Part shown: piece by piece, positions 18,768-24,390 of the stretch
Layout: every line of letters begins with the position of its first letter
Position numbering within the stretch: the first letter of the stretch is position 1
Source of the DNA: an uncultured Clostridia bacterium
GTDB taxonomy: Bacteria > Bacillota > Clostridia > Lachnospirales > Anaerotignaceae
DNA: 64,000 nucleotides
Direction: 5' to 3'
NCBI GenBank assembly: GCA_944377425.1
Contig: CALWEX010000085.1
Span: forward strand, 1 to 64,000
Position numbers and translations under genes: made by a program
Notes under the pieces: model-generated
Database searches by the model: none
Told to the model about the DNA's origin: nothing
The model's input: only the letters and a program-made list of their open reading frames with translations

Positions 18768-19928
18768 TTAACAGAAATTACATTTTCTTGCCATAGACAT
18801 ATCGTTAAAGCCCAACGACTCAGCCTTGCTTTGCTGACCGTTTACAACATCCATAAGTATATCAAAGAGCTCTTTACCAGTTTCTTCTATAGTTTTATCG
18901 CCTGTAATAATACCGCTGGCGTCATAATCAATGTTATCTTCCATAAGCTGTGCTGTTTCGGCATTACCTGTTATTTTAATAACCGGCACAATACCATTTC
19001 CTGTAGGCGTTCCTCTGCCTGTTGTAAATATAACAACCTGCGCGCCTCCGGCTACCATAGCCGCAATAGAAGCTATATCCTGACCTGGTGTATCCATTAC
19101 CACAAGGCCTTTTTTGTCAACCATTTCGCCATAAGCATAAACTTCTGTAATAGGCGAATATCCAGCTTTATGTATACAGCCAAGAGATTTTTCCTCAAGT
19201 GTTGTAAGGCCGCCTTCTTTATTTCCGGCTGAAGGATTTCCGTCACGTAAGCTTTCACCCAGCTTTTCAAAATATTCTTCGTTATCTTTTATAATACCAA
19301 GAAGCTTTTTGGCTACTTCATCATTTACACATCTTGGAGCTAATATTTCTTCTGTGCCCACAAGCTCAGAAGTTTCTGAAAGTATGCTTGTACCGCCCAT
19401 AGATACAATTTTGTCGCTTACCTCACCTAAAGTAGGGTTAGCAGCCAAACCGCTTGTAGGGTCGCTTCCGCCGCATTCTGTAGCAAGTATAAGCTCTGTT
19501 ATGTCAGCATCTTCTTTTTGCACTTTTGATGCTTCACGGCTCATCTGGCTTGCGTATTTAACGCCTAACTCAGCCGCCTTTATTGTACCGCCTACATCAC
19601 GAATAACAACTTTTTCAACTGGTTTATTTGTTTTTTCTTTAATTCTTCTAATAAGCTCATCAGGCTGAACATTTTCGCATGTATTGGCCACAACTACAGT
19701 ACCATATACATTAGGGTTAGCTGCAAAGCCTGAAAGCACTCTGTATGTAAGTTCAAGGTCTGCCGCAGATAAAGCGCATCCGCCCTGATTAGGTATATAT
19801 ACACTTCCCGGCACTTGGCTTGCTATAAATCTTGCCGTTTCACTGGCACATAAGGAACATGGCAGAACAAGCACATGATTTCTTATTCCCACACTTCCGT
19901 CTGGTCTTCTATATCCTTTGAATTTCAT
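18768..19928 (-). CDS. UxaA-family dehydratase, large subunit
   Basis: A 386-residue catalytic component of the altronate/galactarate dehydratase family (GD_AH_C). Family hallmarks include GYRRPDGSVGIRNHVLVLP at the start, the metal/substrate segment ECGGSDPTSGLAANP near 155, SETSELVGTEE and a Cys-rich C-terminus (MARKCNFC). Known members dehydrate sugar acids or cleave sulfolactate (SuyB); the substrate cannot be told from sequence. Start at ATG 19928 behind CGGAGGTG. The small subunit is the gene just upstream. No uronate or sulfolactate pathway genes are nearby. Confidence 0.87.
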   Translation of the reverse strand: MKFKGYRRPDGSVGIRNHVLVLPCSLCASETARFIASQVPGSVYIPNQGGCALSAADLELTYRVLSGFAANPNVYGTVVVANTCENVQPDELIRRIKEKTNKPVEKVVIRDVGGTIKAAELGVKYASQMSREASKVQKEDADITELILATECGGSDPTSGLAANPTLGEVSDKIVSMGGTSILSETSELVGTEEILAPRCVNDEVAKKLLGIIKDNEEYFEKLGESLRDGNPSAGNKEGGLTTLEEKSLGCIHKAGYSPITEVYAYGEMVDKKGLVVMDTPGQDIASIAAMVAGGAQVVIFTTGRGTPTGNGIVPVIKITGNAETAQLMEDNIDYDASGIITGDKTIEETGKELFDILMDVVNGQQSKAESLGFNDMSMARKCNFC

Positions 19929-19952
19929 TATTAGCACCTCCGAAGTTATATA

Positions 19953-20225
19953 TTATTTCATTTTGCTGTCAAGGTTTGATGTATGCACATGTTCTCCGGC
20001 TTTTATATCTTTAAGGGCATAGCCTATTTTACAGCCGTATTTATATATTATTTCGCCCTTTTTAATATCTTTAAGCGCCGCTTTATGGTAAACAGGTATA
20101 TCAGTGCATGCTTTAATGCTGTAATCACTGCCTTTAATTCTGTATTTAATTTCATCACCAGCTTTAATAGGTGATGTTGCAGTTGCTACAGAATCTTTTT
20201 CATTGATAACTACACATGTATACAT
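19953..20225 (-). CDS. UxaA-family dehydratase, small subunit (SAF domain)
   Basis: A 90-residue protein that forms a stand-alone SAF domain, the N-terminal part of altronate dehydratase (or SuyA). Visible pattern: NEKDSVATATSPIKAGDEI, then LKDIKKGEIIYKYGCKIGYA and DIKAGEHVHTSNL, the last being the family's conserved histidine region. Start at ATG 20225 behind GGAGG; an upstream extension to 20261 overlaps the scpB end and has no site. It lies 24 bases before the large subunit, so the two are co-expressed. Confidence 0.87.
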   Translation of the reverse strand: MYTCVVINEKDSVATATSPIKAGDEIKYRIKGSDYSIKACTDIPVYHKAALKDIKKGEIIYKYGCKIGYALKDIKAGEHVHTSNLDSKMK

Positions 20226-20229
20226 ATTA

Positions 20230-20787
20230 TCATTCCTCCTTGTTTTGAACCTCAGTTTCATCTGCTTTAGCGCCGCTAAGCTCCTCTAAAACAGGCAGGT
20301 CTTTAGGCGACCGTAAGCCAAAATATCTCAAAAACTCTTTAGTAGTGCCAAAAAGCAGCGGTTTTCCAGGTGCATCAAGGCGCCCTACTTCGCATACAAG
20401 GCCTCTTTCCACAAGCCTGTTTACTGCATGGTCTGCATTTACACCGCGAATCTCCTCAATCTGAGCTTTTGTAACAGGCTGTTTATAGGCAATAATAGAA
20501 AGCGTTTCCAAAAGTGCCTGTGTCATAAACTGCTGTCGCGGTATTTTGCAAAGAGTTGAAACGTACTCAAAGCACTCAGGCGCTGAGCACATCTGAAAAC
20601 TGTTGTCAAGCTCTATAATACGTAATCCCCTTTTTTGAGTTACATACTTATCCGACAAAGCTCGTATTACAGCACGTGTTGTAGATTTATCCATATTTAA
20701 GGCATTAGCTATATCTGTAAGTGACACATCTGTACCCGATACAAAAAGCATAGCCTCAATAACAGATTCCATTTCTTCAATTTTCAT
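20230..20787 (-). CDS. scpB: segregation and condensation protein B
   Basis: A 185-residue kleisin partner made of two winged helices. It binds ScpA as a dimer and, with Smc, compacts and segregates the chromosome. Recognisable segments are ESVIEAMLFVSGTDVSLTDIA at the start and QALLETLSIIAYKQPVTKAQIEEIRGV near 95. The tail is acidic. It overlaps scpA by 4 bases and precedes the SAF-domain gene by 4 bases. Confidence 0.95.
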   Translation of the reverse strand: MKIEEMESVIEAMLFVSGTDVSLTDIANALNMDKSTTRAVIRALSDKYVTQKRGLRIIELDNSFQMCSAPECFEYVSTLCKIPRQQFMTQALLETLSIIAYKQPVTKAQIEEIRGVNADHAVNRLVERGLVCEVGRLDAPGKPLLFGTTKEFLRYFGLRSPKDLPVLEELSGAKADETEVQNKEE

Positions 20788-21542
20788 ATTTGCACTTCCT
20801 GATTTTTGGTTATAATAATATCGCCAAAATTAATATTCTGGCTTATAATCATAAAACCTGTTTTTATAAGCTCCAAAAGAGCCAAAAATGTAACAGCCAC
20901 TTCGGCTTTTGTTGTATCCCTTGTAAAAACCTCTTTAAACCGCATTTTAGGCGTTAAATATAAAAGCTCTTTAAGATAATCTATTTTTTCCTCTATTGTA
21001 AACTCATCATGTGTAACTGATTTAAAGCCGCTTCTTATTTTATCTGTTTTTAAGTCTTTTCTTTCCATAACTGTTTTAAAAGCGTTTATTAAATCATCAA
21101 ATGTAACTCCATTCATAAAAGAATCTATATCCATAGAATACTCGCTTTTAATTTCGCTTAGTGCCTTATCAGGCTGTTTAAACAGTCTTTGAGAATACTT
21201 GCTTTCTTTCTCCTTAAGCATTTTAGCAAACTCGCAGTACTTCTTGTATTCAATAAGGCGATTAACAAGTTCCTCTCTTGGGTCTGGCTCGTCACTATCT
21301 TCACTTTGAACTTTAGGCAAAAGTAATTTTGACTTAATTTCCATAAGTGTAGATGCCATAACAAGAAAACTGCTCATTACATCCATGTCCATTATTTCAG
21401 CGTTATATATAACTTCCATGTATTGCCTTGTTATTTCAGCTATAGGTATATCATAAATATCAACTTTATTTTTCTCTATTAAATGATACAGCAGGCTGAG
21501 CGGCCCCTCAAAATTCTCCAGCTTGAGAGTTATATTTTCCAT
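20784..21542 (-). CDS. scpA: segregation and condensation protein A (kleisin)
   Basis: A 252-residue kleisin that bridges the Smc heads. The N-terminal helical domain shows LENFEGPLSLLYHLIEKNKVDIYDIPI and the LLLPKV segment; the C-terminal winged helix carries VAVTFLALLELIKTG. Length is normal. The gene follows the site-2 protease homologue by 24 bases, and its partner smc lies about 25 kb to the right on the same strand. Confidence 0.95.
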   Translation of the reverse strand: MENITLKLENFEGPLSLLYHLIEKNKVDIYDIPIAEITRQYMEVIYNAEIMDMDVMSSFLVMASTLMEIKSKLLLPKVQSEDSDEPDPREELVNRLIEYKKYCEFAKMLKEKESKYSQRLFKQPDKALSEIKSEYSMDIDSFMNGVTFDDLINAFKTVMERKDLKTDKIRSGFKSVTHDEFTIEEKIDYLKELLYLTPKMRFKEVFTRDTTKAEVAVTFLALLELIKTGFMIISQNINFGDIIITKNQEVQI

Positions 21543-21566: not shown

Positions 21567-22175
21567 TTATAATATAGCCATAAAAATACTGATAATAGGG
21601 TTAATTATAAAATTAGTGTAGCCCATAAAAAGCAGAAGAAGGAATACCATCTGGATTATTTTTTCGTACTGAATATACTTAAAGTACGAATTAGCCGGAA
21701 GTACACAAGAAAGCACTTTTACACAATCCATAGGTGAAACCGGTACAATATTGTATACGGCAATATAGATATTAAACTGCTTAATTGAAACCAAAAGGTA
21801 AGAAAGCAGTATACCTACAATTCCCATTTCATTTAAAGGCGCTAAAGAGTATATTACAGAAGAAACAAGGGCAGCGATTAAATTAATAACCGTTGGTGCT
21901 ATAGCTGTAATAAGTGTATCTCTTTTTCTGTTCTTATAAAACATAGGGCTTGTTTCTACAGGTTTACCCCAACCAAAACCAGTTGCCCACATAAGTATAA
22001 AGCCTACTGGTTCAAAATGTTTTATAGGGTTTAAAGTAAGGCGCCCTTCGTTTTTAGGCTTTTTATCGCCAAGAGCAGTTGAAACAGCCGCTCTTGAAAA
22101 TTCATGCAGTGTAGTAGCAAATATAACTGCTGGTATTTGCAATGCTAAAACAATCAAATTTACGATAGATGTCAT
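21567..22175 (-). CDS. site-2 protease (M50) homologue with degenerate zinc site
   Basis: A 202-residue membrane protein with about six transmembrane segments, of the compact M50/SREBP-type site-2 protease family that usually sits before scpA. Family landmarks are present: LHEF at 23-26, GRLTLNP at 44-50, GFGWGKPV and D150 in NIVPVSPMD. However the HExxH zinc motif reads H24-E-F-S-R28, so the second histidine is arginine (AGA codon); the AGP-N motif reads APTVIN, and the DG after the third ligand is DC. Loss of a metal ligand makes proteolysis unlikely. It may be a pseudoprotease with a binding role, or a decaying gene with its frame intact. Confidence 0.85.
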   Translation of the reverse strand: MTSIVNLIVLALQIPAVIFATTLHEFSRAAVSTALGDKKPKNEGRLTLNPIKHFEPVGFILMWATGFGWGKPVETSPMFYKNRKRDTLITAIAPTVINLIAALVSSVIYSLAPLNEMGIVGILLSYLLVSIKQFNIYIAVYNIVPVSPMDCVKVLSCVLPANSYFKYIQYEKIIQMVFLLLLFMGYTNFIINPIISIFMAIL

Positions 22176-22350: not shown

Positions 22351-23034
22351 TTATTGCTTGTCATTTGTTAAATCTCCGTTGCCGCTTACAGGTATTGCTT
22401 CACCAAGATAAGTAGGCTCTGGCTTAATTATAACATTAAAAAAGTCCTTCACCCTAGCTATTGCTTCTCTAAAATCCCTGTATTTTTGTCCACGGTACTC
22501 ACGCACATCAGAAGGCACACCATATGCCTCTAAACCAAGACTGCGAGCTATATAAATAGCCCTGTATAAGTGGTATTTCTGCGATACAATAACTATTTTA
22601 TCAGCCTCAAATACTTCTTTAGCCCTATACATACTCTCGTATGTAGAAAAACCCGCGTGGTCCATAAATACATCTTCCGACGGAACTCCCTTATTTATGG
22701 CAAAATTTTTCATAACATTAACCTCGTCATAATCTTTTCTGCCGTGGTCACCGCTCATTAATATTTTGTCTGAAACTTTTTGATTATACAGCTCAATTCC
22801 AGTTTCTAACCTGTCATTAAGCATAGCGCTTGGTCTTTCGTTATTTTTAACGCCTGCACCTAAAACAAGTATGCAGTCTGTACTTTCTAATTCTTTGGCT
22901 TCGTCTATAGATAATATCCACTTTTCGGATGTTTTTTTCACATAACCGTTAATTATTAAAATACTGCCTGAAGCAATTACAAAAACCAAAATCACAGGTT
23001 TTATAATTCGCTTTATTATCTTTTGTATGCTCAT
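22351..23034 (-). CDS. SanA/YdcF-like DUF218 membrane protein
   Basis: A 227-residue protein with one N-terminal transmembrane segment (about 8-28) and an external DUF218 domain: DCILVLGAGVKNNERPSAML, MSGDHGRKDYDE, STYESMYRAKEVF and SQKYHLYRAIYIARSLGL. In Gram-negative bacteria SanA affects envelope permeability; the biochemical activity of the family is uncertain. The start at 23034 has GAGGTGAG upstream. It lies apart from neighbours, with the ctpA terminator before it. Confidence 0.8.
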   Translation of the reverse strand: MSIQKIIKRIIKPVILVFVIASGSILIINGYVKKTSEKWILSIDEAKELESTDCILVLGAGVKNNERPSAMLNDRLETGIELYNQKVSDKILMSGDHGRKDYDEVNVMKNFAINKGVPSEDVFMDHAGFSTYESMYRAKEVFEADKIVIVSQKYHLYRAIYIARSLGLEAYGVPSDVREYRGQKYRDFREAIARVKDFFNVIIKPEPTYLGEAIPVSGNGDLTNDKQ

Positions 23035-23086
23035 GTTTCTCACCTCGCAAAAGTTTAAAACCAAAGTATGACATATTTATTTTAAA

Positions 23087-23139: not shown

Positions 23140-24324
23140 TTATTTCATTTCTGTTCTTAATACCTCTATAGCTTTGCTAAGCTGAACATCGTCCTCATGC
23201 TCAAGGAGCATAACACTTGGTAAATCGTCTGTTCTTTCAACTATATAATCTGGTGTTATACCTACACCCTGAATACATACACCCTTAGGTGTATAATATT
23301 TTTCTATAGTAATTTTAACAGATGAACCGTCTGGAATACTGTAAAGGTTCTGTACAAGGCCTTTGCCGAATGTCTGTGTGCCTACAAGCTTACCTCTACC
23401 TCTGTCCTGAACAGCTCCTGATAATATTTCCGAAGCACTGGCGCTGTTACCGTTTACAAGCATTACAAGCGGAATATCTATGTATTCCGAATCGGCATTA
23501 AAGTCTTTTCTGTTTCCCTCTTTATCGATAGTATAAACTACATTGCCTTCTGGTATAATTTCATCAGCTATTTTTTCTACTGAATCTAAAAGTCCGCCTG
23601 GGTTATCCCTTACATCAATAACAAGGCCTTTTATTCCCTGAGAAACAAGATTGTTATAGCATTCCATAAACTGGTCATAAGTGTTAGCCTTAAATCCACT
23701 AAGATATATGTACCCTATATCTCCATCTATTACCTCACCAGCAACACTTTGAATATCTATAGCCGCTCTCTTAATTTTAAACGTATGCTCTTTGCCGTCA
23801 GATTCTCTGTAAACTGTAATCTCAACTGTTGTGCCTTCCGGTCCGCGAACATTATTTACTATTGTATCTTGATCCATATCTGAAGTGCTTTTTCCATTAA
23901 CCTTGGTTATTTTATCTCCCGGAAGCACACCTGCTTCACCTGCTGGACTATTATCCATAAGATAAGATATAGTAGCTGATTTCTCTTGATTATTATACAA
24001 AATACCTACACCAATGCCACAAAATTCGCCATTTGTAGCACTCATAAATTCCTCTGTTTCCTCAGCTGAAAAATAAGTTGTGTATGGGTCGCCAACACCG
24101 TTTACAAGACCTTCGCAGGCGCCTTCAACAAGCTTATTATTATCAATCTCATCAACATAATATTGATTAAGCAAAGAAGAAATATATGTAAGCTTGTTTT
24201 CCTGAGAAAATGTTTCTCTGTTTTTAGCCATTATACCAGCGCTGGCAAAGCTTAAAACACCGAATACCACGGCAGCTGACAATACACCGGTTACTACACC
24301 GCCATAGAAACTTTTTTTATTCAT
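23140..24324 (-). CDS. S41 family C-terminal processing protease (CtpA type)
   Basis: A 394-residue exported protease. One membrane segment (about 8-30) is followed by a PDZ domain (about 95-185; GIGVGILYN, AGVLPGDKITKVNG) and the S41 catalytic domain with the nucleophile serine in NGNSASASEIL and the general-base lysine in GTQTFGKGL. Start at ATG 24324 behind AAGGAG; an ATG at 24345 overlaps that site. It follows ftsEX with a terminator between, the usual Clostridia order; the PcsB/EnvC-like hydrolase gene that often separates them is absent here. Confidence 0.92.
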   Translation of the reverse strand: MNKKSFYGGVVTGVLSAAVVFGVLSFASAGIMAKNRETFSQENKLTYISSLLNQYYVDEIDNNKLVEGACEGLVNGVGDPYTTYFSAEETEEFMSATNGEFCGIGVGILYNNQEKSATISYLMDNSPAGEAGVLPGDKITKVNGKSTSDMDQDTIVNNVRGPEGTTVEITVYRESDGKEHTFKIKRAAIDIQSVAGEVIDGDIGYIYLSGFKANTYDQFMECYNNLVSQGIKGLVIDVRDNPGGLLDSVEKIADEIIPEGNVVYTIDKEGNRKDFNADSEYIDIPLVMLVNGNSASASEILSGAVQDRGRGKLVGTQTFGKGLVQNLYSIPDGSSVKITIEKYYTPKGVCIQGVGITPDYIVERTDDLPSVMLLEHEDDVQLSKAIEVLRTEMK

Positions 24325-24390
24325 TTTAAATAGCTCCTTAATCATTGATAACTAATTTATATTTAATGTGCCTGTAATTTATTACTAAAT

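Follow-up and report, generated by a model that had tools for sequence, protein, structure and literature searches.

A site-2 protease homologue with arginine in place of a zinc-ligand histidine, encoded beside scpA, and its probable pseudoprotease clade in an order of Clostridia

Introduction

To our knowledge, intramembrane pseudoproteases are known mainly from eukaryotes, as exemplified by the iRhoms and EGY3. The iRhoms are animal proteins. They belong to the rhomboid (serine) family, unlike the M50-like protein described here, and have been described as pseudoproteases that lost their catalytic residues and act without cutting (PMC3149277, in excerpt). In plants, the pseudo-site-2 protease (pseudo-S2P) EGY3 of the Arabidopsis chloroplast lacks the zinc motif and was reported to help stabilise other proteins (PMC10978774, in excerpt). 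It resembles the present protein, by description rather than by sequence, in being an S2P homologue without the zinc motif, and differs in being a plant plastid protein for which the available part of that source describes neither a Lys/Arg-for-His rule nor a link to scpA.

S2Ps hold zinc via the HExxH and LDG motifs, and mutations in these motifs have been linked to lower activity in several species (PMC10202637, in excerpt). In SpoIVFB, the zinc ligands are H43, H47, and D137; zinc was lost on purification, and the metal-free protein retained its client next to the re-entrant loop (PMC11486902, in excerpt), so that an S2P without its metal can hold a client.

The nearest comparison is offered by HExxH site-2 proteases encoded directly before scpA in other Clostridia, which share position, length, Asn98, NxxPxxPxD, and GD..GRLTLNP..H..P.G..GWxKPV with the protein described here, and differ from it in their HExxH, AGPxxN-type, and LDG-type motifs. 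These small proteases are presumably of the YwhC/group III type. No bacterial pseudo-S2P clade was found in the literature searched, which lay mostly outside subscription journals and consisted of titles and the first parts of abstracts; in literature likewise mostly outside subscription journals, no work on an S2P at scpA was found. PMC12419801 mentions a different gene inserted between scpA and scpB, and its available text holds no mention of M50 beyond DOI fragments. The gene described here lies in a stretch of 64,000 nucleotides (the window) from an uncultured Clostridia bacterium.

Samples and Surveys

The family sample comprised 58 genomes, of which 54 had a match and all 54 were read, the four genomes without a match being 67-78% complete. 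The search of the order covered 146 genomes, with matches in 105; 90 of the 112 listed match rows were read, and seven of the other 22 were second matches of a genome. Before alignment, one split frame (L090), partial frames, and identical proteins were removed, and one HExxH row (L219) dropped out too.

Because the profile searches of the family, the order, and the phylum sample were seeded with Arg/Lys-rich alignments, which could bias the result, an scpA-anchored survey was added, in which the gene before scpA was examined in 147 genomes of the class and 42 of the order; M50 assignments within this survey also rest on a profile. In the class, 70 of 143 scpA matches were read as loci, 40 of these chosen one per remaining family. 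The 42 genomes of the order were 41 without a match in the order search plus G130; 32 had an scpA match, and 30 of these were read.

The Gene and Its Altered Motifs

The gene, the elements of its product, and the two genes behind it are as follows.

21567..22175, minus strand: candidate pseudo-S2P gene (M50-like), open frame from ATG to TAA, 202 amino acids
22092..22106, minus strand: HEFSR replacing the zinc-binding HExxH, residues 24-28 (frame translation)
21951..22070, minus strand: conserved stretch, residues 36-75, GD..P...GRLTLNP..H.EP.G...GFGWGKPV.T, of low entropy in the family
21882..21905, minus strand: AIAPTVIN, residues 91-98, corresponding to AGPxxN, with Pro for Gly94 and Asn98 retained
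21723..21752, minus strand: NIVPVSPMDC, residues 142-151, the LDG motif with Asp150 kept and Gly151 replaced by Cys
21660..21671, minus strand: QYEK, residues 169-172; E171, K172, and Q175 are invariant in 53 family rows
20784..21542, minus strand: scpA, directly downstream of the candidate pseudo-S2P gene (Pfam SMC_ScpA, 2e-33)
20230..20787, minus strand: scpB, overlapping the end of scpA (Pfam SMC_ScpB, 6.2e-56)

A preliminary description of this DNA had pointed to HEFSR at the zinc motif and to further changes at the AGP-N and DG motifs, and both are borne out in the open frame. The HExxH of active M50 proteases reads HEFSR, and the canonical A-G-P-x-x-N and L-D-G have become A-P-T-x-x-N and M-D-C, with Asn98 and Asp150 still present. 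The third ligand of active M50 proteases, the Asp of LDG, is found as Asp150 in the window protein and in all 53 aligned family rows. The same description held that Arg28, encoded by AGA at 22092-22094, was too far from a His codon, at two base changes, to be a single sequencing error. That it is no error stands, since Arg is family-wide, which rules out both a sequencing error and a private mutation as its source; the count itself was wrong, as CAT and CAC differ from AGA at all three positions. An argument from base counts is weak either way, given that a single non-silent step (CAY to CGY) turns His into Arg and any further changes are silent, and the decisive point against chance or sequencing error is the conservation of Arg.

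With regard to residues 36-75, many consensus residues of the HExxH relatives are retained, with exceptions such as Asp55 to Glu and Ala70 to Gly. By analogy with SpoIVFB, this stretch may be a binding or re-entrant region (PMC11486902, in excerpt).

Homology and Predicted Fold

Pfam PF02163 (M50) matches the window protein at 20.8 bits (E 2.7e-4), under its curated cut-off of 27.2 bits, and no NCBIfam match was obtained at E<=1. An alignment of 41 rows (A3) gave three weak matches to TIGR00054 and one to each of two peptide-maturation metalloprotease models. A profile search of the PDB found 3b4r at 1e-10, chiefly through residues 75-191; the N-terminal HExxH stretch contributes only 4.4 bits in this search and aligns Arg28 to the second zinc His.

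The AF2 model of the window protein, made from an alignment of 58 rows (seven with HExxH), is all helical and has a pLDDT of 95.8. Foldseek placed mjS2P at the top with probability 1.00 but E 0.018 and TM 0.49, and returned nothing at E<=0.001. VIA matched the model to mjS2P (3b4r) with Z 10.8 and rmsd 3.7 over 158 residues, to a RASP model entry (10.5), to SpoIVFB (10.0 and 8.4), and to RseP (9.9), with unrelated chains from 5.8; Z under about 13 can reflect a common arrangement of unrelated helical proteins, and the five top entries are all site-2 proteases or so titled, well above the rest. Another model was made for a relative that has M-G-x-x-K and Phe at 150, having lost H24, E25, and D150; it reached a pLDDT of 96.2 (41 rows, three with HExxH) and matched mjS2P with Z 10.7 and SpoIVFB with 9.3, unrelated chains starting from 5.1. 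The S2P core fold is, in this sense, a property of the predicted model. The overall fold of mjS2P (3b4r) and SpoIVFB (8vjl, 8vjm) is like that of the model; unlike both, the window protein has Arg for a zinc-ligand His, and whereas SpoIVFB has a C-terminal CBS domain, the 202-residue window protein is without any C-terminal extra domain.

Conservation and Selection within the Family

Arg28 is present in all 54 family genomes with a match, that is, in 53 intact frames and in a split copy in G009, and the motif in every copy is HE[FY]xR. Among the intact rows, Arg28 is encoded by AGA (34), AGG (13), CGT (3), and CGG (3), and it belongs to 31 positions that are invariant across them. In addition, 12 relatives on named contigs, with 51-92% identity to the window protein, all have HEFxR; they include Candidatus Neoanaerotignum, Anaerotignum sp. 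MSJ-24, and Chakrabartyella piscis, and six of the 12 contigs carry the NCBI order Lachnospirales.

The dN/dS (NG86) of the gene against five relatives ranges from 0.050 to 0.119, as low as that of scpA (0.039-0.095, one value undefined) and scpB (0.063-0.137) for the same relatives, with dS near or past saturation in the more distant pairs. The family-wide Arg, the variety of its codons, and the low dN/dS indicate that the change at residue 28 is old and that the protein is under strong purifying selection. The orthologue alignment and selection estimate proposed in the preliminary description, which had named close HEFAH orthologues under relaxed selection as the sign of decay, gave the opposite of that sign, and its reading of the protein as a pseudoprotease holds on sequence and selection, a catalytic residue having been lost from a protein that is kept by purifying selection.

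Simple decay, in which the gene would be functionless and drifting, could be read into the split copy in G009 and into the order loci from genomes missed by the M50 search, 27 of 30 of which have no M50 gene in the stretch at scpA (families f2, f6, and f9). For the window's family, it is refuted by the selection measures: dN/dS of 0.05-0.12, 53 intact frames in 54 genomes, varied Arg codons, and 31 invariant residues leave it very improbable. The split copy itself (L090, G009:C10:53840-54410) runs over two overlapping frames with HEFVR still legible, and may represent a sequencing error or an early loss.

Compensation by another small M50 protein was also considered and, after a survey of the 58 family genomes, set aside. 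A long M50 frame above 159 bits, taken as RseP-like by length, occurs in 50 of the 58, and a further M50 frame of 239-337 amino acids in 12. The window's genome has one other M50 match, a 369-residue frame that lies on another contig and carries HEAGH and MDG.

Distribution in the Order and Beyond

Among 107 aligned rows of the order that lie directly before scpA, residue 28 is Arg in 55, Lys in 33, His in 14, Thr in 3, Gln in 1, and Val in 1. The second His is hence absent in 93 of the 107 homologues (17 families), and five families keep it at the scpA locus (f24, f8, f14, f20, and f3). The other three of the 30 loci from genomes missed by the M50 search (f4, f21, and f22) are Lys types. A further 25 rows of the order, without scpA in the stretch read, have His (17), Lys (7), or Arg (1). 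Such Lys types include L067, L110, and L134 of f17, which have Lys also at the first zinc His (KExxK), and L138, L139, and L140 of f19.

Outside the order, HExxH was found in all 35 M50-like genes directly before scpA (34 aligned and one read at its locus). These come from 68 scpA loci, 12 others of which have the M50 gene further upstream and 21 none in the stretch, the latter including two with almost no upstream sequence (L225 and L249). In a sample of 199 genomes of the phylum, the best 30 matches comprised 29 loci besides the window, all with HExxH and 14 of them directly before scpA.

History of Residue 28 and the Old Zinc Site

A quick maximum-likelihood tree was made from 136 rows, with the motif columns removed, the family thinned to 19 rows, and one row under 150 amino acids left out. 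The states His, Lys/Arg, and other need five changes on it. Family f7 (HGxxQ) groups with HExxH families, which implies at least one more loss of His, and on the free tree the main Lys/Arg clade does not include f15 or f22/f21/f4. When the 66 non-His rows other than f7 were constrained to one clade, p-AU was 0.78 and lnL was 16.3 above that of the free quick tree; a single origin of all non-His rows bar f7 is not rejected, nor is it proven.

The fate of each site was followed by two-state (kept or lost) change counts over the 67 non-His tree rows. A basic residue 28 is kept in 62 rows with three changes and is neutral in the other five, while counting by full letters raises the changes to six. 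H24 is kept in 51 rows (four changes), E25 in 57 (five), N98 in 41 (seven), D150 in 37 (ten), and G151 in 33 (eleven). The Pro that replaced Gly94 is present in 55 rows with two changes, fewer than basic 28. By these counts, D150 drifted off in many lineages, and basic 28 was held at least as well as H24 and E25, over which its lead is small.

With regard to charge, 92 of 101 non-His rows are basic at 28 and acidic at 25 or 150, four are basic without an acid, three have neither, and two have an acid without a basic residue. In four rows H24, E25, and the acid at 150 are all gone and Lys28 is retained, and three further rows (HGxxT) lack the basic residue as well. The pattern would fit co-variation of acid and base at the old zinc site, but with too few independent pairs it is no more than suggestive.

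The same sites bear on the possibility that the protein is still a metalloenzyme or a metal sensor, in which His24, Asp150, and, for example, His53 or Glu25 would hold a metal and Arg28 would tune it. This would agree with the window's family, where H24, E25, and D150 are invariant in 53 rows and H53 is 94% conserved. Outside the family, however, non-His rows have often lost one or more of H24, E25, and D150 while Lys/Arg stays, and the conservation of H53 is just as high among HExxH relatives (99%), which means that H53 was not newly recruited as a ligand. An active S2P in which Arg stands at the second zinc ligand is not known to us, and we regard an altered metal site as unlikely.

Proposed Mechanism

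The substitution, its conservation, the purifying selection, and the position beside scpA are observed directly. Taken with the predicted fold, they make it probable, in our judgement, that the genes form a clade of pseudo-S2Ps in which a zinc ligand gave way to Lys or Arg, the catalytic metal was given up, and the groove was kept so that a client could be held uncut. Since the zinc-ligand His was lost and the protein kept intact, its task is probably to bind a partner without cleaving it, and conservation together with the predicted fold argues for a retained binding or structural role.

The steps may be envisaged as follows. The HExxH ancestor would already have adjoined scpA. Its second zinc His would then have changed to Lys or Arg over a large part of the order, with Arg fixed in the window's family. 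With Arg at this position, zinc binding and cleavage should fail. The Lys/Arg side chain would most likely lie at the former place of zinc, neutralised by Glu25 and Asp150 in a salt bridge, so that the old site would be permanently positive and free of catalytic metal; the cation perhaps stands in for the charge of zinc as well as for the ligand. The fold and residues 36-75 would persist, and a membrane peptide or membrane protein would most likely be bound uncut, the protein acting as a holder, an adaptor, or a competitor. The client retained by zinc-free SpoIVFB and the retention of residues 36-75 are the grounds on which the window protein is read as a former protease that now binds a client in the membrane.

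If so, the clade would be a natural experiment on the roles of S2Ps besides cutting: across much of an order, the replacement of the zinc ligand is clearly biased towards Lys/Arg, and in neighbouring orders the same locus carries relatives that look active. In genome annotation, homology by itself is no ground for counting genes of this clade as proteases.

Gene Neighbourhood and the Link to scpA

The gene ends 24 bp before the start of scpA, and the place before scpA that the preliminary description called conserved was found directly so in 52 of 53 intact family rows. This adjacency, which also persists in 107 rows of 17 order families despite strong divergence, could point to a direct role with ScpAB-SMC, for instance as a membrane dock with Lys/Arg or the C-terminal QYEK as the contact. 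If such a functional link held, it would give ScpAB-SMC a membrane side in Clostridia. Nevertheless, the adjacency predates the loss of catalysis, HExxH forms standing directly before scpA in 35 of 68 loci outside the order; scpA occurs without the pseudo-S2P gene in 27 loci of the order, and the stretch read around eight Lys/Arg rows contains no scpA. As adjacency is older than the loss of His and scpA does without the gene in three order families, the link to ScpAB-SMC is positional, and a direct role is improbable. A combined form, in which a membrane receptor with Lys/Arg for zinc holds its old client and couples client or membrane to ScpAB-SMC, is just as doubtful.

Upstream of the gene, with one gene between, a CtpB-like S41/PDZ protease gene (Pfam) lies at 23140-24345. 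Ten of the 12 named family loci have it upstream. The Anaerotignum and Chakrabartyella loci lack it over a distance of 3 kb, and none was seen in another 20 family loci, for most of which only about 1.5-2 kb of upstream sequence was covered. In Bacillus, CtpB helps free SpoIVFB from inhibition (PMC11486902, in excerpt), which makes the CtpB-like protein a candidate partner of the pseudo-S2P. The intervening gene (22351-23064) encodes a DUF218 protein and is present in five of the 12 named family loci.

A scan before the pseudo-S2P gene gave four promoter-like sites against 2.2 expected, both strands counted, and a terminator scan of the same region found none, an uninformative outcome. Directly behind scpB, an altronate/galactarate dehydratase is apparently split into two adjacent genes (18768-19937 and 19953-20261), with the SAF domain alone in one piece and then the second and C-terminal domains in the other; the same arrangement is seen in four of the 12 named family loci.

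Other genes take the place before scpA elsewhere. In f2, f6, and f9 (L165, L183-L196, and L198-L209), scpA is preceded by a gene other than M50; the product of that gene opens, in several f6 loci (e.g., L188, L191, and L192), with a membrane helix followed by LSDLHG and is presumably phosphoesterase-like. In addition, in 12 of the 68 loci outside the order (L151, L152, L153, L160, L169, L170, L173, L174, L212, L220, L221, and L237), a frame starting with SG(M/T)RPTG, presumably trpS (tryptophanyl-tRNA-synthetase-like), lies between the M50 gene and scpA.
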